From Dissophora ornata (lineage: Eukaryota > Mortierellomycota > Mortierellomycetes > Mortierellales > Mortierellaceae), in assembly GCA_025201705.1 (NCBI GenBank), contig MU617115.1, forward strand, positions 1-22,840: a stretch of 22,840 nucleotides of DNA. The letters run 5' to 3'. Each line of letters opens with the position of its first letter. Positions within the stretch are counted from its first letter, which is position 1. A program made the position numbers and the translations under genes. The notes beneath the pieces are model-generated. The model had not been told where the DNA came from. It searched no databases and saw only the letters and a program-made list of their open reading frames with translations. Of this stretch, positions 11,336-22,665 are shown in pieces.

Positions 11336-13389
11336 TTACTGGGCCTTGCCCAGCTTGGCAGCAGCGTTCGAAACTGCATTCAAACGAGCAAAGACCTCAG
11401 CAGTTCCGTCAATCATGCCTGTGGTGTGGTATGTGACGCCGTACTTTTTGCAAAGCGACTCGACTGCAGGCTGGATCTTTGAGAAGCTGTGGCGGGGCAT
11501 CGATGGGAACAGATGGTGCTCGATCTGGAAGTTCAATCCACCCGTGAACCAGTTGGCAAAGAGACCGGGGTGCACATCACGTCCAGTGATGATCTGCTTC
11601 GTGAAGAAATCCATGCTGACGGCCTCCTCCCTCGAGATCACAGGCATACCATTGTGGTTCAACGAGAACACCAATGCCAACAAGTTACCACACACAGCCT
11701 GCGAGACCAAGAAGTAGACTACAATGTTGATGGGATCCTTGATGAACAAGAACATTGTTGCAAAGTACCAGGTCCAGTGCATCGCCAATGACAGCTGCTC
11801 GACCAACGAGATGGGGACACGGGCACCGGAAGGCTTGTGGGCCTGGCCGTTGGGCATAACAAAGAGGATCGACTGAAGGCACCAAGAGAGACGGGCAAAC
11901 GAAAGAATAGGGAAGTAGAACCAGGTCTGGTTCAGGACCATGAAGCGGCTCCACATGCGGGTCAACTCCTCATCAGGAACATCCGCGAAAATCTCCAGAG
12001 CGTGCTCACTCCAGGTCAAGAGAGGGTGAGTGTCAATATCGGGGTCCTCGCCATGAACGTTGGGGGCGGCGTGGTGAGTGTTGTGCTTGTCCTTCCACCA
12101 CGAAGAAGAGAATCCCTGGCAGACACCTCCCAAGAAGGCGCCAAACAAATCACCCCAGAAACGATCCTGGAAGACTTGGTGGTGCAAAAAGTCATGGGCC
12201 AACCAGCCGCACTGCTGCCAGAACACGCCGAGCAACGAGGCCGAGATGACGTTGGCAAGGGTCGAGGTCTGACCCCACTTGGCGACAATGAAGGTCGAGA
12301 GGGCCCAGATGGACAAGTTGAAGGTGACCTTGAAGGCGTAGTAGGCCTTGGACGAGTCGTAGTAGCCCAGGGACTGGAACAGCGTGCGCAGCTTGCGGAC
12401 CTCGGCCGCAAAGTCGTCGTTCTTGATGGCGCGATCCGACTCGGCAATGTCTCCAACGTAGAAATTGGCGAGGGTCTCCCAGGCGGCCTCGGGGTGGAAG
12501 GTCTCGAACACATCTATAGCGGGTGCGCGGGGGAATAGGGTTAGGCACTGGCTGGTATAGTTTAGAATGGCGGCTGGATATTAGGGGGTCTCGGTTGCAA
12601 AAGCAAGCGCATGCAAGCCCCCATATGAAAACATGCCATTCGGCAAACCATAATATCCGTTGCCGTATTTCCAATGTGTCTGTTTTGTGCGGGGGCGACA
12701 GGTGGCAGGACGGGAAGCACCACACACCACACCACTCAGATTGCAAAACACAGGCGATCCCATAATAAATAAAATAAACACAAAGTATAAACGACAGCCA
12801 TGTGCGAGGCACGAGCAGATAAGCGTTGGGGATGTGCTAACGCCAAATAAACAATAATACCGCAGGAGAAACCAAAAAAAAAAAAACCTGAGCTTCCCAC
12901 TCTCCTTTCCTCGTACTGCCCTCCCCGAGGGAACATTGTTCCTGGAAGGGAAGAACAGGGAGGGGCCGAAATTCACCACCTCCATCGGGTGGATCTCTCG
13001 TTCTCGTGCCATGCTTACCAGTGCCGTCCTTGCCAACGTGGGTGAGAATGACGCTTCCACCGGGATGATCAGGCACAAACTCGCGGACATCGTACACCTT
13101 GTTGTCGATGATCATCAAAAAAGGTGCCTCGGCATCGTTCTTGGCCTCGGTCAGGGCATTGACATTAAGAATCTCGGCTCGAGTAAAAGTCTTGTTGCCT
13201 ATCATGTTTGCCAATCAATTATTCGTCGCAGATAGAAAAAAAAAAATAAAGGGGTGAGCGACGTGGTAATCGGATCGCGGAAGTTTTGTCCGCGGTTATC
13301 AGCGCCATTGTCGAGGGTCGAAGCGAGGGGCCAGCGGGTGGCGAGTCTCCTGTTAGGTATAGCAAGACAGACATACTGGGGGTGGCCAT
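11336..13389 (-). CDS. Delta-6 fatty acid desaturase (cytochrome b5 fusion, front-end), 3 exons
   Basis: Exons on the minus strand are 13377-13389, 13019-13198 and 11336-12513, joining to 456 residues; the M. alpina enzyme is 457. The protein has an N-terminal cytochrome b5 domain with heme motif HPGG (49-52) and second ligand His71. Three histidine boxes follow: HDFLHH (171-176), HNTHH (208-212) and QIEHH (394-398), where Q replaces H as is standard for front-end desaturases. Hydrophobic membrane segments lie between the boxes. It inserts a cis double bond at delta-6 of linoleoyl or alpha-linolenoyl chains in the ER, making gamma-linolenic or stearidonic acid, the first step toward arachidonic acid. 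The start is the ATG at 13389 in a GCCATGG context after a CT-rich leader; the 13-nt exon (MATP + A) splices through GTATGT to AG|GC. A start at the internal ATG near 13206 would lie inside the intron. Confidence 0.96.
13199..13376 (-). other. Intron 1 of the delta-6 desaturase
   Basis: A 178-nt intron with donor GTATGT at 13376-13371 and acceptor AG at 13200-13199. It separates the 13-nt first coding exon from the cytochrome b5 exon; the split codon A|GC gives Ser5. The joined start MATPSNKTFTRAE parallels the M. alpina start MAAAPSVRTFTRAE. Confidence 0.85.
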
Positions 13390-14602: not shown

Positions 14603-14787
14603 CAGTCAACCCCCGATATAATGCCACTCGCTGTACTGACATTTTTCATGTAGTGACACCACTTGAATTTTCATTATATTTTTTTACTATGCATTTCTTC
14701 TCGTTGTAACGACATTCGCATACAATCGCCTATAATGACACCTCCAAATCTCTATACCAAACGTGTCATTATAACGGGAGTTGACTG
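14603..14787. mobile_element. 185-bp MITE with ~25-bp terminal inverted repeats and TA target duplication (Tc1/mariner-pogo type)
   Basis: The left end reads TACAGTCAACCCCCGATATA and continues ATGCCAC. The reverse complement of the right end reads TACAGTCAACTCCCGTTATA and continues ATGACAC, so 24 of 27 bases match. TA is present at both boundaries (14601-14602 and 14788-14789), the target duplication of Tc1/mariner-superfamily elements. There is no coding capacity. Subterminal copies of TAATGACAC-like motifs include an 11-bp perfect inverted pair at 14731-14741 and 14763-14773. The CAGTCAAC... end resembles pogo/Fot1-type termini, so a non-autonomous pogo-like element is inferred. Confidence 0.85.
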
Positions 14788-14810
14788 TATTCGATATTCA
14801 ACCCAGATCG

Positions 14811-17423: not shown

Positions 17424-17944
17424 CCAAGTACTCGTCGTAAAGGTGATACTGCCAAGGTCCACCGACATTGTAATTGTCGGACCGCTATCGAATGCGACCT
17501 GCACAACCGAGTCAATAAGCCTATGGACTCCTCTGGTGATCGTCTGGACAGTCCCCAGGGAGCCATTGGATATTCCTGCACTACGGTGGACGTTGCTCAG
17601 GCACATTAGCTGGTCCGTGGTTCCGAATCCTAACCCATCTATCGCCTCGAATTGATACAGTTCTGAAGCGATTCCGCCAAGCAGTTTCTCGTTAAACGTT
17701 TTAGCCGACAGCGATCGGTTGAACAAGTAAAAATAGTCATCAAGCCGGTCGGTCTCATCTCGCCAAACATGGTTGAGATACAAGGACGACGGCCTGTGCT
17801 GATAATCTCTCGCAAACTCAAAGCAGGCCTCAGTGGATCGCACACCGGTTGTTGTTGGTTGCCCTCGGTTCTTGACACATTGAAGAACCGGTGGATGGTG
17901 TGGCCCTGGATATTGTTAGCGGCCACACCGGATGGCGCCAAAAG
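17424..17944 (-). pseudogene. Broken PIF1-like helicase fragment fused to the Fanzor relic
   Basis: Immediately after the Fanzor reading breaks off, the minus strand reads LLAPSGVAANNIQGHTIHRF, the PIF1/Helitron helicase motif Ia region (LAPTGxAAxNIxGxTIH). After a frameshift near 17835 it continues ACFEFARDYQ, SLYLNHVWRDETDR (like the VYRQ segment after Walker B), FNEKLLGGIASELYQFEAID and SAGISNGSLGTVQTI (like GLxNGxxGxV). Walker A is absent, cut off by the junction. The Walker B DExx region is also missing, so there is an internal deletion besides the frameshift. It ends at a TAA at 17421-17423. This could derive from a Helitron or from a host or transposon PIF1 family gene. It cannot make an active helicase. 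Confidence 0.7.
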
Positions 17945-18296
17945 ACGGTTATTGTTGCCATTGTAGAATGTGTCGAGTTGCAGTTGCATTGTTTCCAGTT
18001 CCTGGTAATAGCTAAACAAGCTGGCGCCTTCGCCACGGCGCGGTGGCATACTGCTCTCAATGTCGGCTATCGATCTTGTGGCATCCACGGGAACAAGTGC
18101 CTTTTGCTCCTCCATCTAGCGGCGATGCTTGAAGCTTGGTTGATATACAGCCTTTTGCTTGACAGCCAAATTGTAATATTTGACAGTATTGGGGCCAGGG
18201 AGTGAACCGGACGAAGGAGACGGAGTGGTGAGAGTGGGCGGGACTGATTCGATGCTTGGCACTTCCTTCTTGACGTTGGAATCAACAACAGAGACA

Positions 18297-18471
18297 TCCT
18301 CCATATCGACATCAGTATGATCAACAAGACTATTATCCTCCATATCAACATCAGTATGATCAACAAGACTATTGTCCTCCATCTCGACATCAGTATGATC
18401 AACAAGACTATTATCCTCCATCTCGACATCAGTATGATCAACAAGACTATTGTCCTCCATCAAGACATCGG
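18297..18471 (-). repeat. 39-bp tandem repeat x4.5, coding for an acidic 13-residue repeat in the Fanzor relic
   Basis: Units at 18297-18335, 18336-18374, 18375-18413 and 18414-18452, plus a partial unit, encode (M)EDNSLVDHTDV(D/E) on the minus strand. The repeats differ by only a few bases (TATCGAC/TATCAAC/TCTCGAC; TTATC/TTGTC), so the expansion is recent or has been homogenised. They lie between the RuvC-I motif and the YNLAVKQKAVYQP segment, a loop position, and keep the reading frame. Confidence 0.95.
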
Positions 18472-19345
18472 TGTCCACTTCAAAACAGTCCTTCATATCA
18501 ACGTCGACATCCTTGTTGGAAAGCCGAGGCTTTTTCTTTGCCTTGCGGCGACCCAGAGGGGGAGGAGACTCTGAAAGCAGCGCACTCGCACCAACAACAC
18601 AAGCCTGGCCAAGGTCCAAGCCTATGATGTTGATCTGCTCCGGCTCACAGCCCCGAAGGTCTGTGATATCTTGCTTAGTCTTGATGATGTTGCGGACCTC
18701 CGTTAAATAATAGTCGGTCTCTGCAGTGGCGGTGGTGAGTCGAGGAGGCAGGACGCTGTCGGGTAACCGTCTATATCGAACTGACTGTAGTTCTCTAAGT
18801 TTAAATGCCAGCAACTGTACTCGAAAACCGTCCGTCCGAATGGAGCCTTGCAAAACATATCCTTTTTTGTTGTATGTGGCAGGATTGAAATAGGCCTGCT
18901 GAAGGGGTTCGATATGATTCTTGATCTCCTCCAAAGACATCAACTGAACCGCAGCCTTGACTCCTGCTTTACCTCGTTTCCGAGAACTCGGATACTCTTT
19001 GGCAACATCTGAAAGAAGGCGCTTGATGAGGAATCCAGGCTCGATACCCGCTACCCAATAATCCACGTCTTGGAGCGTTAGCCTGCAGGCTTCGATGCTG
19101 CTGTAGGAGGGCGAGGCGAGTTCTTGAAGTCGGACTTTCAAAATGCCCCTCTTCCAGAACAATGCCACCAGATCTCTCTCACTGAACGTCAAGAATCGGT
19201 GTTCTATAGGCGACAAAGGAGCCAGTCGGCGGCTGTTGCTGCTGATCTTGTTCAAGTGGATAAAGTTCTCGATTGCTAAACGGTCCTTGCGAATCTCGAT
19301 GTTGCAACCTTCAGGCAGGAACCCTTTCTTCTTTTGAAGCTTGAG

Positions 19346-19481
19346 CTGCGATGAAACGATTGTCAGTATTAGTATATGATGCAGCAAGCTGGGGTATATG
19401 ATACAGCGAGCTAGGGTAAATGATATAGCGAGCTGGGGTAAATGATATAGCGAGCTGGAGTGTAATAACGTTGGCCCGTAC
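19346..19481 (-). other. Intron in the Fanzor relic, carrying a 21-bp minisatellite
   Basis: Donor GTACGG follows ...DLYEK and the acceptor is ATCGCAG before LKLQKKKGF, in phase 0. The frame is also open through the intron on the downstream side. Four ~21-bp units (GTAAATGATATAGCGAGCTG-like on the plus strand) fill 19372-19458. Confidence 0.75.
19372..19458. repeat. 21-bp minisatellite x4 inside the Fanzor intron
   Basis: Four adjacent units of the form GG(G)TAAATGATATAGCGAGCT. The two distal units are diverged (TATATGATGCAGCAAGCT, TATATGATACAGCGAGCT) and the two proximal ones are nearly identical. Confidence 0.9.
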
Positions 19482-19546
19482 CTTTTCATATAGGTCATAG
19501 CTCCCGTTTCTGTACATCTTCCTGATCTCGATAGAGACATGAGAAG

Positions 19547-19581
19547 CAGCGCTCCGTGTCAGCGCTCCGTGTCAGCGCTCC
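19547..19581. repeat. 13-bp tandem duplication that shifts the Fanzor reading frame
   Basis: CAGCGCTCCGTGT occurs twice, followed by CAGCGCTCC. On the minus strand the upstream frame reads GALTRSADTERC, whereas the downstream frame needs RSAASHVSIEIRKMY. The duplicated length, 13, is not a multiple of three, and with one unit the two frames would agree. Confidence 0.9.
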
Positions 19582-20836
19582 TGGGGTGAAGTCCATGGTT
19601 GCTCTTATCGCACCAGGTTCACCTTTCTCCAGCAGTCCCAACTCCTCCAAACGCTTTATGAAAGTGTTCACATCCTGTCCGATTCCTTTAAGGCGCGGAT
19701 AGTTGCCAGAGTAGAGGTATCGCAGAAAAGATTCCAGGAACTGCAGGTGCCTGTCGCCCTTGCCATCTAGGTCGCTGTCGTCCTCAATTTGACCATCGTT
19801 ATCGTTGTCATCCGGAGTGGAGTTCATATCCTTGGGTGCGATGCTTTTACAGAGAAATCCTAAGAGGGTTCCATCAAGATCTTGCAAAATACCTTGACTG
19901 AGTTGCTCAACGTACAACCCAATGATTCGCTGGCCTGATCGCTTAATGCTTGCCGCGAGATGAACAGCCTCCCTTATAGTCTTAAGTACTTCCTGCAGCA
20001 GAGCCGGCTCGTCCTTTAAAACCTCCCTGACGTTCGCTCTTAGAGTGCCAACGTTCAAGCTGACAATAGGGTGCTCCTAGCCTAGGGCACGGACAAGATC
20101 GACTTTTCTCATGTCTGCCAGTTTCTTGATCTCCTTCCGTGGGGTTTTTTTTTCGTTGCTCTGACCCTTGTCTTTGTTGGCGGTGTTGCTGCTGGTGTCG
20201 ATTGGTTTCTCGGGTGGCTTCGTCCAAGGCTTCCAGACGTACTGCTTCATGGGCCTCCGGTGACTCGTGAGTTTTCTGACGGGTGCGCTCTTTGATGGAG
20301 AACCGCGGTCGTTGACGGGAGGGATTTGCTTGGAGTTCTTGGAGCACTAGCGTCTGTCACCATGTCCTCGGGGGGTTTTCTTCTCCTTTGGAGGTGACTG
20401 GTCGATAGTGCGATACCTATTAAACTCCTGAGACGGTTTGTGCCTCCGGAATTTGTCCTCCAAAGAGCCACTGGACAAAGAGAATAATAACATCTGTAAG
20501 TCCAACATTGCTCAACCAAGTGAAAGTAGGGTATCTTGACTCCCTATGCTGTAATGCAGTAGCAGTAGCATTCTACCTGTTCCGCGTGAGTTGGAGTTCT
20601 CTTTGTTCGGTCCTGTTCCTGGCTTGTAGTTCGCACACTTGATCGAATTTGGCCTTGACAGCATCAAAAGTGAGCGCCGGCGTTTTGCCCTGGAGAGGAT
20701 GTGCAAGGCATTGGCTTCGCAAGCGTCTGTATCCGGCGAATGAACACCCGTAAAGCGTTTTCAAACGTATAATTCCCCGTGTTCTTGAGGACTACACGAC
20801 GGTCGGCCAAATAACACTTCACCATCGCTTCGGGAT

Positions 20837-21895
20837 CTATCAATTCCAGTTAAAATATCAGCACCCGGTATCTATCTACTAACCCATAATCAAGCTGATT
20901 GTAATAGTATAATGCCGATAAAACCCAGGGGGTTCATTTTTTTCATATATATTTGTATCTTGCATTCTGGTTAGAAGATGGGATGAGGTACATGGGTTTT
21001 GTGCAGTGCACGTTTAAAAACCATGGTATTCTTTGTAACAGTTGTGGGTCTTAGTAAGGCACAGGGGCACCTTGCAACCTTGCAGAATCCACAGATCCAG
21101 GTTGTGGGGGGGGGGTCTTGAAATCGCTCCCAACACTTCTCTGGGTAGTGATCGCCTTTGTTGGCAAATCGAATGGTGGGGTGGTCTGTGCACCATCATC
21201 GGGGGGGCACGTTGAAATTAAGGTTGAGGTGTCTTCTCGAGTTCACACTTATTGCACATGTCTCAAAGGGAATGATGAACGCCCTTATATTAGTTCTTTA
21301 CGTACACTAACAGGCTCAAATAAATGGGCAAGTCTTGTATTGTTGCAAAAATGCATGCCTGAATTTACTTGGGTGGTTGTCACTGCCACAACGATGTATA
21401 CGTGTTTTTGTTGTCAGGTCCATCGGGGGAGCAGCAACTTTGAGAGGCATATATTTCCTGGCATTTTTTTTTATCTCAGTCTTCTTGTCTAAAGCATCGA
21501 CCGTGACGGAAGGAATCTTCTTTGTCTTCAAGGATCTTTATGAGCCAAAATCTGAGCTGGTCTGGAAGTGAAGTCGTCGAATGCAGGAGCTCCGAGGTGG
21601 AAAAAGACAAGTAGTATATCGACGCGCTTTGAGAATATCGCCTTTTTGATCCATTCGGTCTACACTGAAGACAGTATTTCTTGTCCTTTTGGGGTAGGCA
21701 ATCAGACATTGGCAGGCGGGCGGGCGAGTTGCCCCTCAGGATGAATCGTACTTTTGATGCGAGCGAAAACGCCCAAGGAGGTTGTGTATTTTTCTTCAGT
21801 CGTCTTTTTTTTTTTTTGCGCACGGACAGATTGCCATGTGCTTTTGAAATTATAATAGGAAAAAGGCTAAATGCAATAGGAAACATCCATCCCGC
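20837..21895. other. Spacer between the two divergent Fanzor relics
   Basis: There is no convincing gene. The longest frame (21118-21492, plus, 124 codons) has no ATG start and overlaps G runs. The sequence is A/T-rich near 20940 (TTTTTTTCATATATATTTG) and contains several G or T homopolymers. Any terminal repeats of the Fanzor-carrying elements should lie here, but none could be matched by eye. Confidence 0.4.
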
Positions 21896-22665
21896 AGTGA
21901 CCCTCGATATTGAAGTGTTTAGAACTCTCTGGGAAAGCCGTACCCACCTTGCTTGCCAAAACACCCAAAGCGGTCATGCCAGCAGCTTGTTGATCGATCC
22001 ATTGAGCGTGAGGGGGGGGAGTCAGACAGAGAAATGTTCGACCGTATTTTTGTCCGCGTATCTCGACAAAGAGCGCGGATGGTGGCAGATGAAGAGGAGG
22101 AGGAGGAGGAGGCGGAGGCGGAGGATGATATAGACGACAAAAGACACATCCAATTTCTTGCCATGATACAACAACACATGTCAGACGGGAGCGTGCAAGC
22201 GTTCATTGAATCGAGCACATAGGACCTAGGCTTGTTGGTAAAAAGGGGAATAAAACTGCTCGCAACTGAACTCAAGCGCTACTACTACAGCAAAGAACTG
22301 ACGTTAGTCATCATTGTCTATCTTAATCTCTCCGCTAGGGCGCGTTTTGATCTTAATTCCTACAAGGAGCACGGCTATATTCTACGAGGGCTCCCATTCG
22401 AACAGGCGAGTTCCGCCCTTCAGCTGCTAGCTTTCAAGATGAAAGAGCTCCAGTCGGTCAGATACAAGCGACTCTCGGAGAAACGTCTTGCCACCCCCCT
22501 CCTTGAACCACTACCATTGTTGGAGGCGTGGACTACTTCCTGACCGAGGTTCCGAAATGTTGTCAAAACTCTACAGGATGTCGCTGGTCTTTGGGGGCTC
22601 TGCGCACCCGGCCAAGTTGGAGTGAGTGCGTTGTTGTTGCCCAAGGACAACCGACCTATAGTGGG
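21896..22665 (+). pseudogene. Second, heavily decayed Fanzor copy
   Basis: Successive plus-strand segments line up with the minus-strand Fanzor in the same order: VFRTLWESRTHLACQNTQSG (like VLKTIREAVHLAASIKRSG); an acidic run then DDKRHIQFLAMIQQHMSDG (like GDRHLQFLESFLRYLYSG); ATELKRYYYSKEL (like SIEIRKMYRNGSY); then, after a large deletion, FDLNSYKEHGYILRG and LQLLAFKMKELQSVRYKRL (like FNPATYNKKGYVLQG and VQLLAFKLRELQSVRYRRL); VDYFLTEV; and NVVKTLQDVAGLWG. The pieces are in different frames with stops between them (for example at about 22220). An extra C near 22548 breaks the V|RNVV join. The RuvC-I motif GLDLGQACVVGASALL is reduced to APGQVGVSALL, without the Asp. It ends in G-rich sequence. 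Confidence 0.7.
22092..22124 (+). repeat. GAGGAG-type purine repeat coding for a Glu run in the second Fanzor relic
   Basis: A (GAG)n tract with GCG interruptions encodes an acidic run at the place where the first copy has its DDNDNDGQIEDDSD linker. Confidence 0.8.

Follow-up and report, generated by a model that had tools for sequence, protein, structure and literature searches.

The window analysed here, a stretch of 22,840 nucleotides from Dissophora ornata, carries on its minus strand what is probably a dead copy of a multi-exon Mortierellaceae gene, whose product of ~1200-1350 residues would join an N-terminal nuclease of the XPG/FEN1 type, through a linker, to a C-terminal Fanzor. Homology, exon pattern, a 3' junction, the domain architecture of the kin and the conservation of both active sites are the computed parts of this explanation, and in several genera two nuclease domains with conserved sites occur in one predicted protein. 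The copy in the window is an ordinary dead member of this XPG-Fanzor family, cut short at both ends. A previous sequence-only reading had described it as a decayed Fanzor gene, which is right as to the Fanzor but incomplete, since the copy derives, in all probability, from an XPG/FEN1-Fanzor fusion, has lost both ends, and owes its 3' loss to a junction with a Helitron-type helicase relic.

The architecture has gone unremarked in public genomes, most entries there being annotated as hypothetical proteins. The literature searched, with subscription papers and most preprints lying outside it, contained no paper on a Fanzor with XPG or on a Fanzor with Mortierella, which leaves such an absence unproven, and Fanzor and FEN1 came together in none of the matches listed. 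Should the two domains act as one enzyme, the combination would be new.

Layout and decay of the window copy

The features of the window are collected in Table 1, where splice sites were placed by homology and not from transcripts. The copy shares 96% DNA identity with the paralogue C824 over 2498 bp, from a 5' edge of homology at 20908 to 17946, and 87% with the paralogue C298 over 2392 bp, from 20927 to the same base. The homology reaches back only as far as intron 1, and the XPG exon expected upstream of this intron is missing. In this regard, the limits first proposed for the locus proved nearly exact, exon 2 starting at 20836 and the sequence beyond the junction at 17945. Exon 2 reads DPEAMVKCYLADRRVVLKNTGNYTFENALRVFI, which tblastn aligned with the fused proteins P0002 (residues 260-292, E 2.15e-5) and P0033 (E 1.5e-5).

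Table 1. Features of the window and their positions
Feature	Position	Strand	Remarks
Decayed Fanzor copy	17946-20927	-	DNA homology to paralogues of the same 31.4 Mb genome
Intron 1 remnant	20837..20927	-	C298 homology starts at the 5' edge, C824 homology at 20908
Exon 2, segment after the XPG core in fused proteins	20577..20836	-	Frame breaks part way
Intron 2	20471..20576	-	GT...AG, homology to C123
Exon 3, linker and N-terminal Fanzor part	19482..20470	-	Frame breaks present
In-frame TAG, exon 3	20077..20079	-	TGG in C824
13-bp tandem repeat, 2.7 copies	19547..19581	-	Shifts exon 3 frame
Intron 3	19346..19481	-	Intron signals; 22-bp minisatellite at 19372-19458, 4 copies
Exon 4 as far as the junction; Fanzor core including RuvC-I	17946..19345	-	Cut before alternative glutamate, zinc finger and RuvC-III
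RuvC-I motif GLDLGQACVVGA	18587..18622	-	Read in exon 4
39-bp coding minisatellite, 4.5 copies	18296..18469	-	C824 version shorter
In-frame TAG, exon 4	18116..18118	-	TGG in C824
Helitron-type PIF1 helicase relic	17472..17945	-	Joined to Fanzor at 17946/17945
Second, separate Fanzor fragment	22316..22610	+	E 3.2e-8 at 22316-22597; 84% DNA identity to C556 at 22351-22610
Fatty-acid desaturase gene	11336-12511	-	PF00487, 8.5e-38

Two in-frame stops, frame breaks in exons 2 and 3 and the loss of both ends mean that this copy cannot encode a working nuclease; the stretch 19481-19346, with its intron signals and minisatellite, was left out of the lesion count. Both stops and the 3' junction arose after the window copy and C824 had diverged, since C824 has neither stop and keeps its C-terminus. 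Loss of the XPG exon may in turn be shared with C824 and so perhaps predate that split. The lesions had been thought datable relative to one another, and two age classes, one private to the window and one possibly common to C824, can indeed be told apart, though nothing finer. For the exon with RuvC-I, dN/dS was 0.21 between C824 and C298, 0.25 between the window and C298, and 0.50, on 13 changes, between the window and C824. These values indicate constraint during the evolution of the family and a window copy that has been free of it for a short time at most.

Fanzor identity and the catalytic C-terminus

A single-sequence PDB search with the window exon gave no match, Pfam assigned no family to the exon-4 ORF, and exon 3 produced only sub-threshold, chance-like matches, so that the link to Fanzors had to come from the kin. 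DNA homology to Fanzor paralogues bears out both the family and the legible RuvC-I first noticed in the window. The aspartate of this motif is present in the window and in all 41 ungapped rows of the kin (46 aligned). The motif reads DLG in the window, and the kin, mostly DAG, DGG or DLG with DPG in 3 of 46, differ here from the Fanzor1 proteins SpuFz1, PpFz1 and GtFz1. DPG is described, in the available text of PMC10711439, as near exclusive to Fanzors, that is, as a usual and not a strict mark. Since DPG does not mark this family, its membership is argued from the fold and the alternative glutamate of the kin.

In this line, the published Fanzor pattern, as it appears in the excerpted part of the same source (PMC10711439), places an alternative glutamate six residues ahead of the zinc finger. 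This glutamate, at that spacing, and HRD are present in C824, C298 and C123, just as in the three Fanzor1 proteins. The last exon of C824 reads VNEYYTSKKCPVC...CPHC...HRD and contains a TNB domain (4.3e-12), C123 has another (2.5e-12), and TNB matches number 59 genome-wide. Paralogues with the full C-terminus, which the sequence-only reading had proposed to look for, do exist in the same genome, C824 and C298 carrying alternative glutamate, zinc finger and HRD; a family devoid of RuvC-II/III, the finding that would have spoken against that reading, is not what these TNB matches describe. The pattern of alternative glutamate, CxxC...CxxC and final aspartate occurred in 27 of 169 proteins returned by our searches, many of them partial. 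Alternative glutamate, zinc finger and RuvC-III are gone from the window through the junction at 17946.

Foldseek was run with a fused model of the relative P0063 as the query, in place of the window copy itself, and its best matches were SpuFz1 (1.1e-9), PpFz1 (2.3e-8) and GtFz1 (3.5e-7). The TM score against SpuFz1 was 0.49 by target length, with an rmsd of 17.8 A that is large because several domains were aligned together. In comparison with Fanzor1 structures the kin add an N-terminal XPG/FEN1-like domain and a long linker, and the window copy is without the catalytic C-terminus. PpFz1 also has an extra domain, FRI, which the accessible portion of its description presents as a cyclophilin-binding insertion in RuvC, unlike the XPG addition of the kin. 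PDB matches of the C123 Fanzor exon to bile acid receptor chains (E 0.44 or worse) were taken as chance.

An XPG/FEN1-like domain upstream of the Fanzor

Several paralogues have upstream, on the same strand, an ORF with the XPG I-region (2.8e-6 in C298, above the Pfam cut-off, and 5.1e-4 in C123, below it). A single query, from C123, returned 45 XPG rows in the genome, which merged into 38 loci. At least 15 of these 38 are followed on the same strand, at a distance of at most 5 kb, by a Fanzor core or TNB, and none is preceded by one on that strand, against a rough chance expectation of ~0.3; at C190 the Fanzor within 5 kb lies on the opposite strand. The distance from XPG to TNB was 2761-3117 bp in 12 of 12. 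The pairing count drew on 40 of 105 Fanzor-core rows; on these, the 5 kb downstream of 23 of the 38 XPG loci showed no Fanzor, and an XPG partner was lacking for 47 of the 59 TNB rows. The XPG exon of C123 ends in a phase-1 donor and the following exons are in phase; C20 has introns at the same two places, as judged by eye. Exon 3 of C123 contains a single frame break, and C20 becomes degenerate downstream.

Neither the genome search with the C123 query nor tblastn revealed an XPG core in the window, where only the tail segment 20837-20739 rose above chance. C824 is also devoid of the XPG exon, with its break 19 bp further in, and its open Fanzor exons suggest that XPG may be dispensable.

The XPG-like domain of the kin has the FEN/EXO1 fold, and its best structural matches are the replication and repair nucleases EXO1, FEN1 and XPG. 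The VIA table of the full model spans residues 2-303 only and has no bearing on the Fanzor half. Seven positions that we take to be the metal-binding acidic residues of the FEN1/XPG family are kept in 59/62, 70/72, 70/71, 69/71, 69/71, 70/71 and 70/72 ungapped rows of 72 aligned domains, compared with an average of 0.63 for the major-residue fraction across the whole XPG alignment. Relative to the FEN1/EXO1/XPG (Rad2) nucleases the domain is 14-19% identical, is fused to a Fanzor and is itself a predicted nuclease. The second glutamate of the pair typical of that family is an aspartate in the kin, at a site that presumably corresponds to FEN1 160.

Predicted fused proteins in the databases

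Twenty proteins were retrieved with a query spliced from C123, among them P0002 of Podila verticillata (1296 aa) and P0005 of Linnemannia gamsii (1256 aa), both with XPG_I and TNB. Three protein searches together returned the 169 proteins mentioned above, at least 31 of which cover both the XPG query, over more than 150 positions, and the query for the Fanzor C-terminus, over more than 200. These searches need shared five-residue words, and scoring in two of the three was limited to the candidates with the most words in common, so that more distant kin may exist. The named kin belong to Haplosporangium, Podila, Linnemannia, Entomortierella, Benniella, Mortierella, Dissophora, Gryganskiella, Gamsiella and Modicella; Dissophora is a member of the Mortierellaceae, to which we take the other genera to belong as well. 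Dissophora ornata itself is represented by P0103, which is 99% identical to the XPG exon of C123 and has the same splice from XPG to exon 2, and by P0115, which matches C20 at 97, 88 and 100% in three pieces.

Ten of the 46 aligned proteins keep all seven XPG acidic positions (D or E) together with the RuvC residues D, E and D, and eight of these ten also have the four zinc cysteines; among the rest, many are incomplete and some lack certain of these residues. Pfam at 0.001 recognised TNB in 28 of the 46 and XPG_I in 9. Moreover, distances of the XPG and Fanzor halves correlate (r 0.48) over the 24 rows that cover both, a value reached by none of 2000 permutations. Public records label two Fanzor-containing entries as 'Elongation of fatty acids protein 2' (P0050) and 'subunit of tubulin prefoldin' (P0055); these are probably mis-annotations or chimeric models.

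What the XPG half may do

Nucleases of the XPG/FEN1 family cut flaps, bubbles and R-loop flanks, and the TnpB/Cas12 relatives of Fanzors cut DNA with one RuvC site. Fanzors bind their target DNA as an R-loop and cut it with a single RuvC site, as summarised in the available sections of PMC10432273 and PMC11423790. Work by Tian and Alt, as related in PMC7286691, showed that XPG in purified form cuts R-loops at their 3' flank. In intact kin, the Fanzor half with a guide RNA would open an R-loop and cut with RuvC, the XPG half would cut or trim the R-loop or flap so made, and its action could aid a double-strand break favouring the copying of the element. Taken alone, this mechanism for the XPG half, acting on the R-loop of the Fanzor half, is one to which we give somewhat less than even confidence. 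That Mortierellaceae carry live two-nuclease RNA-guided enzymes, in which a single polypeptide generates double-strand breaks whose ends are processed and also drives the copying of its own element, seems to us a little less probable still and rather unlikely. If true, the fusion of a Fanzor with a nuclease for R-loop flanks or flaps would offer a further way to cut both DNA strands and a possible lead for genome-editing enzymes.

The fusion could equally be real with an XPG domain that processes ends or flaps during transposition of the element or repair, outside guided cutting. We hold this reading as tentatively as the guided mechanism, and such end processing without a guided role is about as likely as XPG acting on the Fanzor R-loop. 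It agrees with the structural matches of the domain to EXO1, FEN1 and XPG and with the many kinds of transposons with which Fanzors travel, according to the partial texts of PMC3627910 and PMC10711439, but it differs from the guided mechanism in substrate only.

One gene or two

Both roles suppose a single polypeptide, and its basis is gene models and homology, not transcripts. Gene predictors might have merged two neighbouring genes of one mobile element, one XPG-like and one Fanzor, that make separate proteins. Several database entries contain one half only, C824 has Fanzor exons without XPG, and a methionine in the linker, a possible start, is common to 12 of the 24 fused rows. However, this same column is an alanine in 7 of the 24, different genera share conserved linker motifs, and the introns flanking the first exon of the linker in C123 keep phase. 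Moreover, 31 of the 169 models, from several genera, agree on the fusion, and the XPG-to-exon-2 splice recurs in P0103. We consider a merger of two genes improbable and keep the fused gene as our reading of the family.

The 3' junction and the helicase relic

At 17946 eight paralogues were aligned with the window (C824, C298, C58, C190, C72, C446, C231 and C421) and all eight carry on as Fanzor, the switch being found in the window alone, which upholds the original view that the catalytic C-terminus is missing. Past the junction the window reads LAPSGVAANNIQGHTIHRFF (17941-17783), which over 53 residues shares 45% identity with the C842 helicase (E 3.7e-11). A further piece at 17612-17472, in a different frame, matches weakly (E 0.022, and 0.001 in another search), as does Pif1_2B_dom (0.061). 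C842 encodes a PIF1 helicase (7.3e-27) preceded by a Helitron_like_N region (1.2e-4, with 22.8 bits against a Pfam cut-off of 28.9). The relic past 17945 resembles the helicases of C842 and C579; compared with a Helitron RepHel, the window has internal helicase fragments only. A homology search of the rest of the window gave neither a Rep domain nor a helicase N-terminus, and for this reason we name the sequence a helicase relic and not a Helitron, and favour an illegitimate junction or a deletion over a clean insertion.

That the Fanzor was cargo of an adjoining Helitron, with 17946 as a planned arrangement and not damage, is very improbable: Fanzors have been reported inside Helitrons (PMC3627910 and PMC10432273, in the text available of each) and helicase sequence starts within 5 bases of the junction, but the join interrupts both coding regions, is absent from all eight aligned paralogues and is accompanied by no Rep or helicase N-terminus elsewhere in the window, and C119, a seeming second case, is degenerate Fanzor only. 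A recurrent Fanzor-helicase fusion was considered because C119 matched across the junction (34% identity), and was rejected on its frames.

Elements and neighbours

The Fanzor family is multicopy in this genome. Alignments of the 5' side or the 3' side of the copies gave no common element termini, and target duplications and element ends were not found for the copies here. Just upstream of its XPG-less Fanzor, C824 (L029:1700-3490) has a recombinase-like ORF of 597 aa that matches NDC10_II (2.1e-8) and GCR1_C (1.5e-8), as in what we take to be Crypton-type proteins. In the MCi-2 Fanzor elements of Mucor circinelloides the 5' regions are exchangeable, and a partial Crypton transposase accompanies one of them, a situation that recalls the ORF upstream in C824; in the available part of that description (PMC3627910) no XPG-like domain is mentioned, unlike in the kin here. 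A viral origin of the family was considered and rejected, as 14 loci on viral contigs match only query residues 1160-1307, in the Fanzor C-terminus, and none the XPG part.

The sequence-only reading had also placed Fanzor copies near housekeeping genes; the desaturase gene on the same contig is uninformative on this by itself. Shortly past the Fanzor stop, C824 and C298 (L029 and L030), and not C231, share the palindrome GTGTGTT-CGCC-AACACAC, which may belong to an element end or to a guide RNA. TNB scores are equal in C96, C4 and C209, equal in C44 and C228, and close in C248 and C796, which suggests recent duplications of a kind that might expose element ends. A 116-bp repeat at 14674-14789 of the window is 94% identical to a place in C231 near another Fanzor copy.
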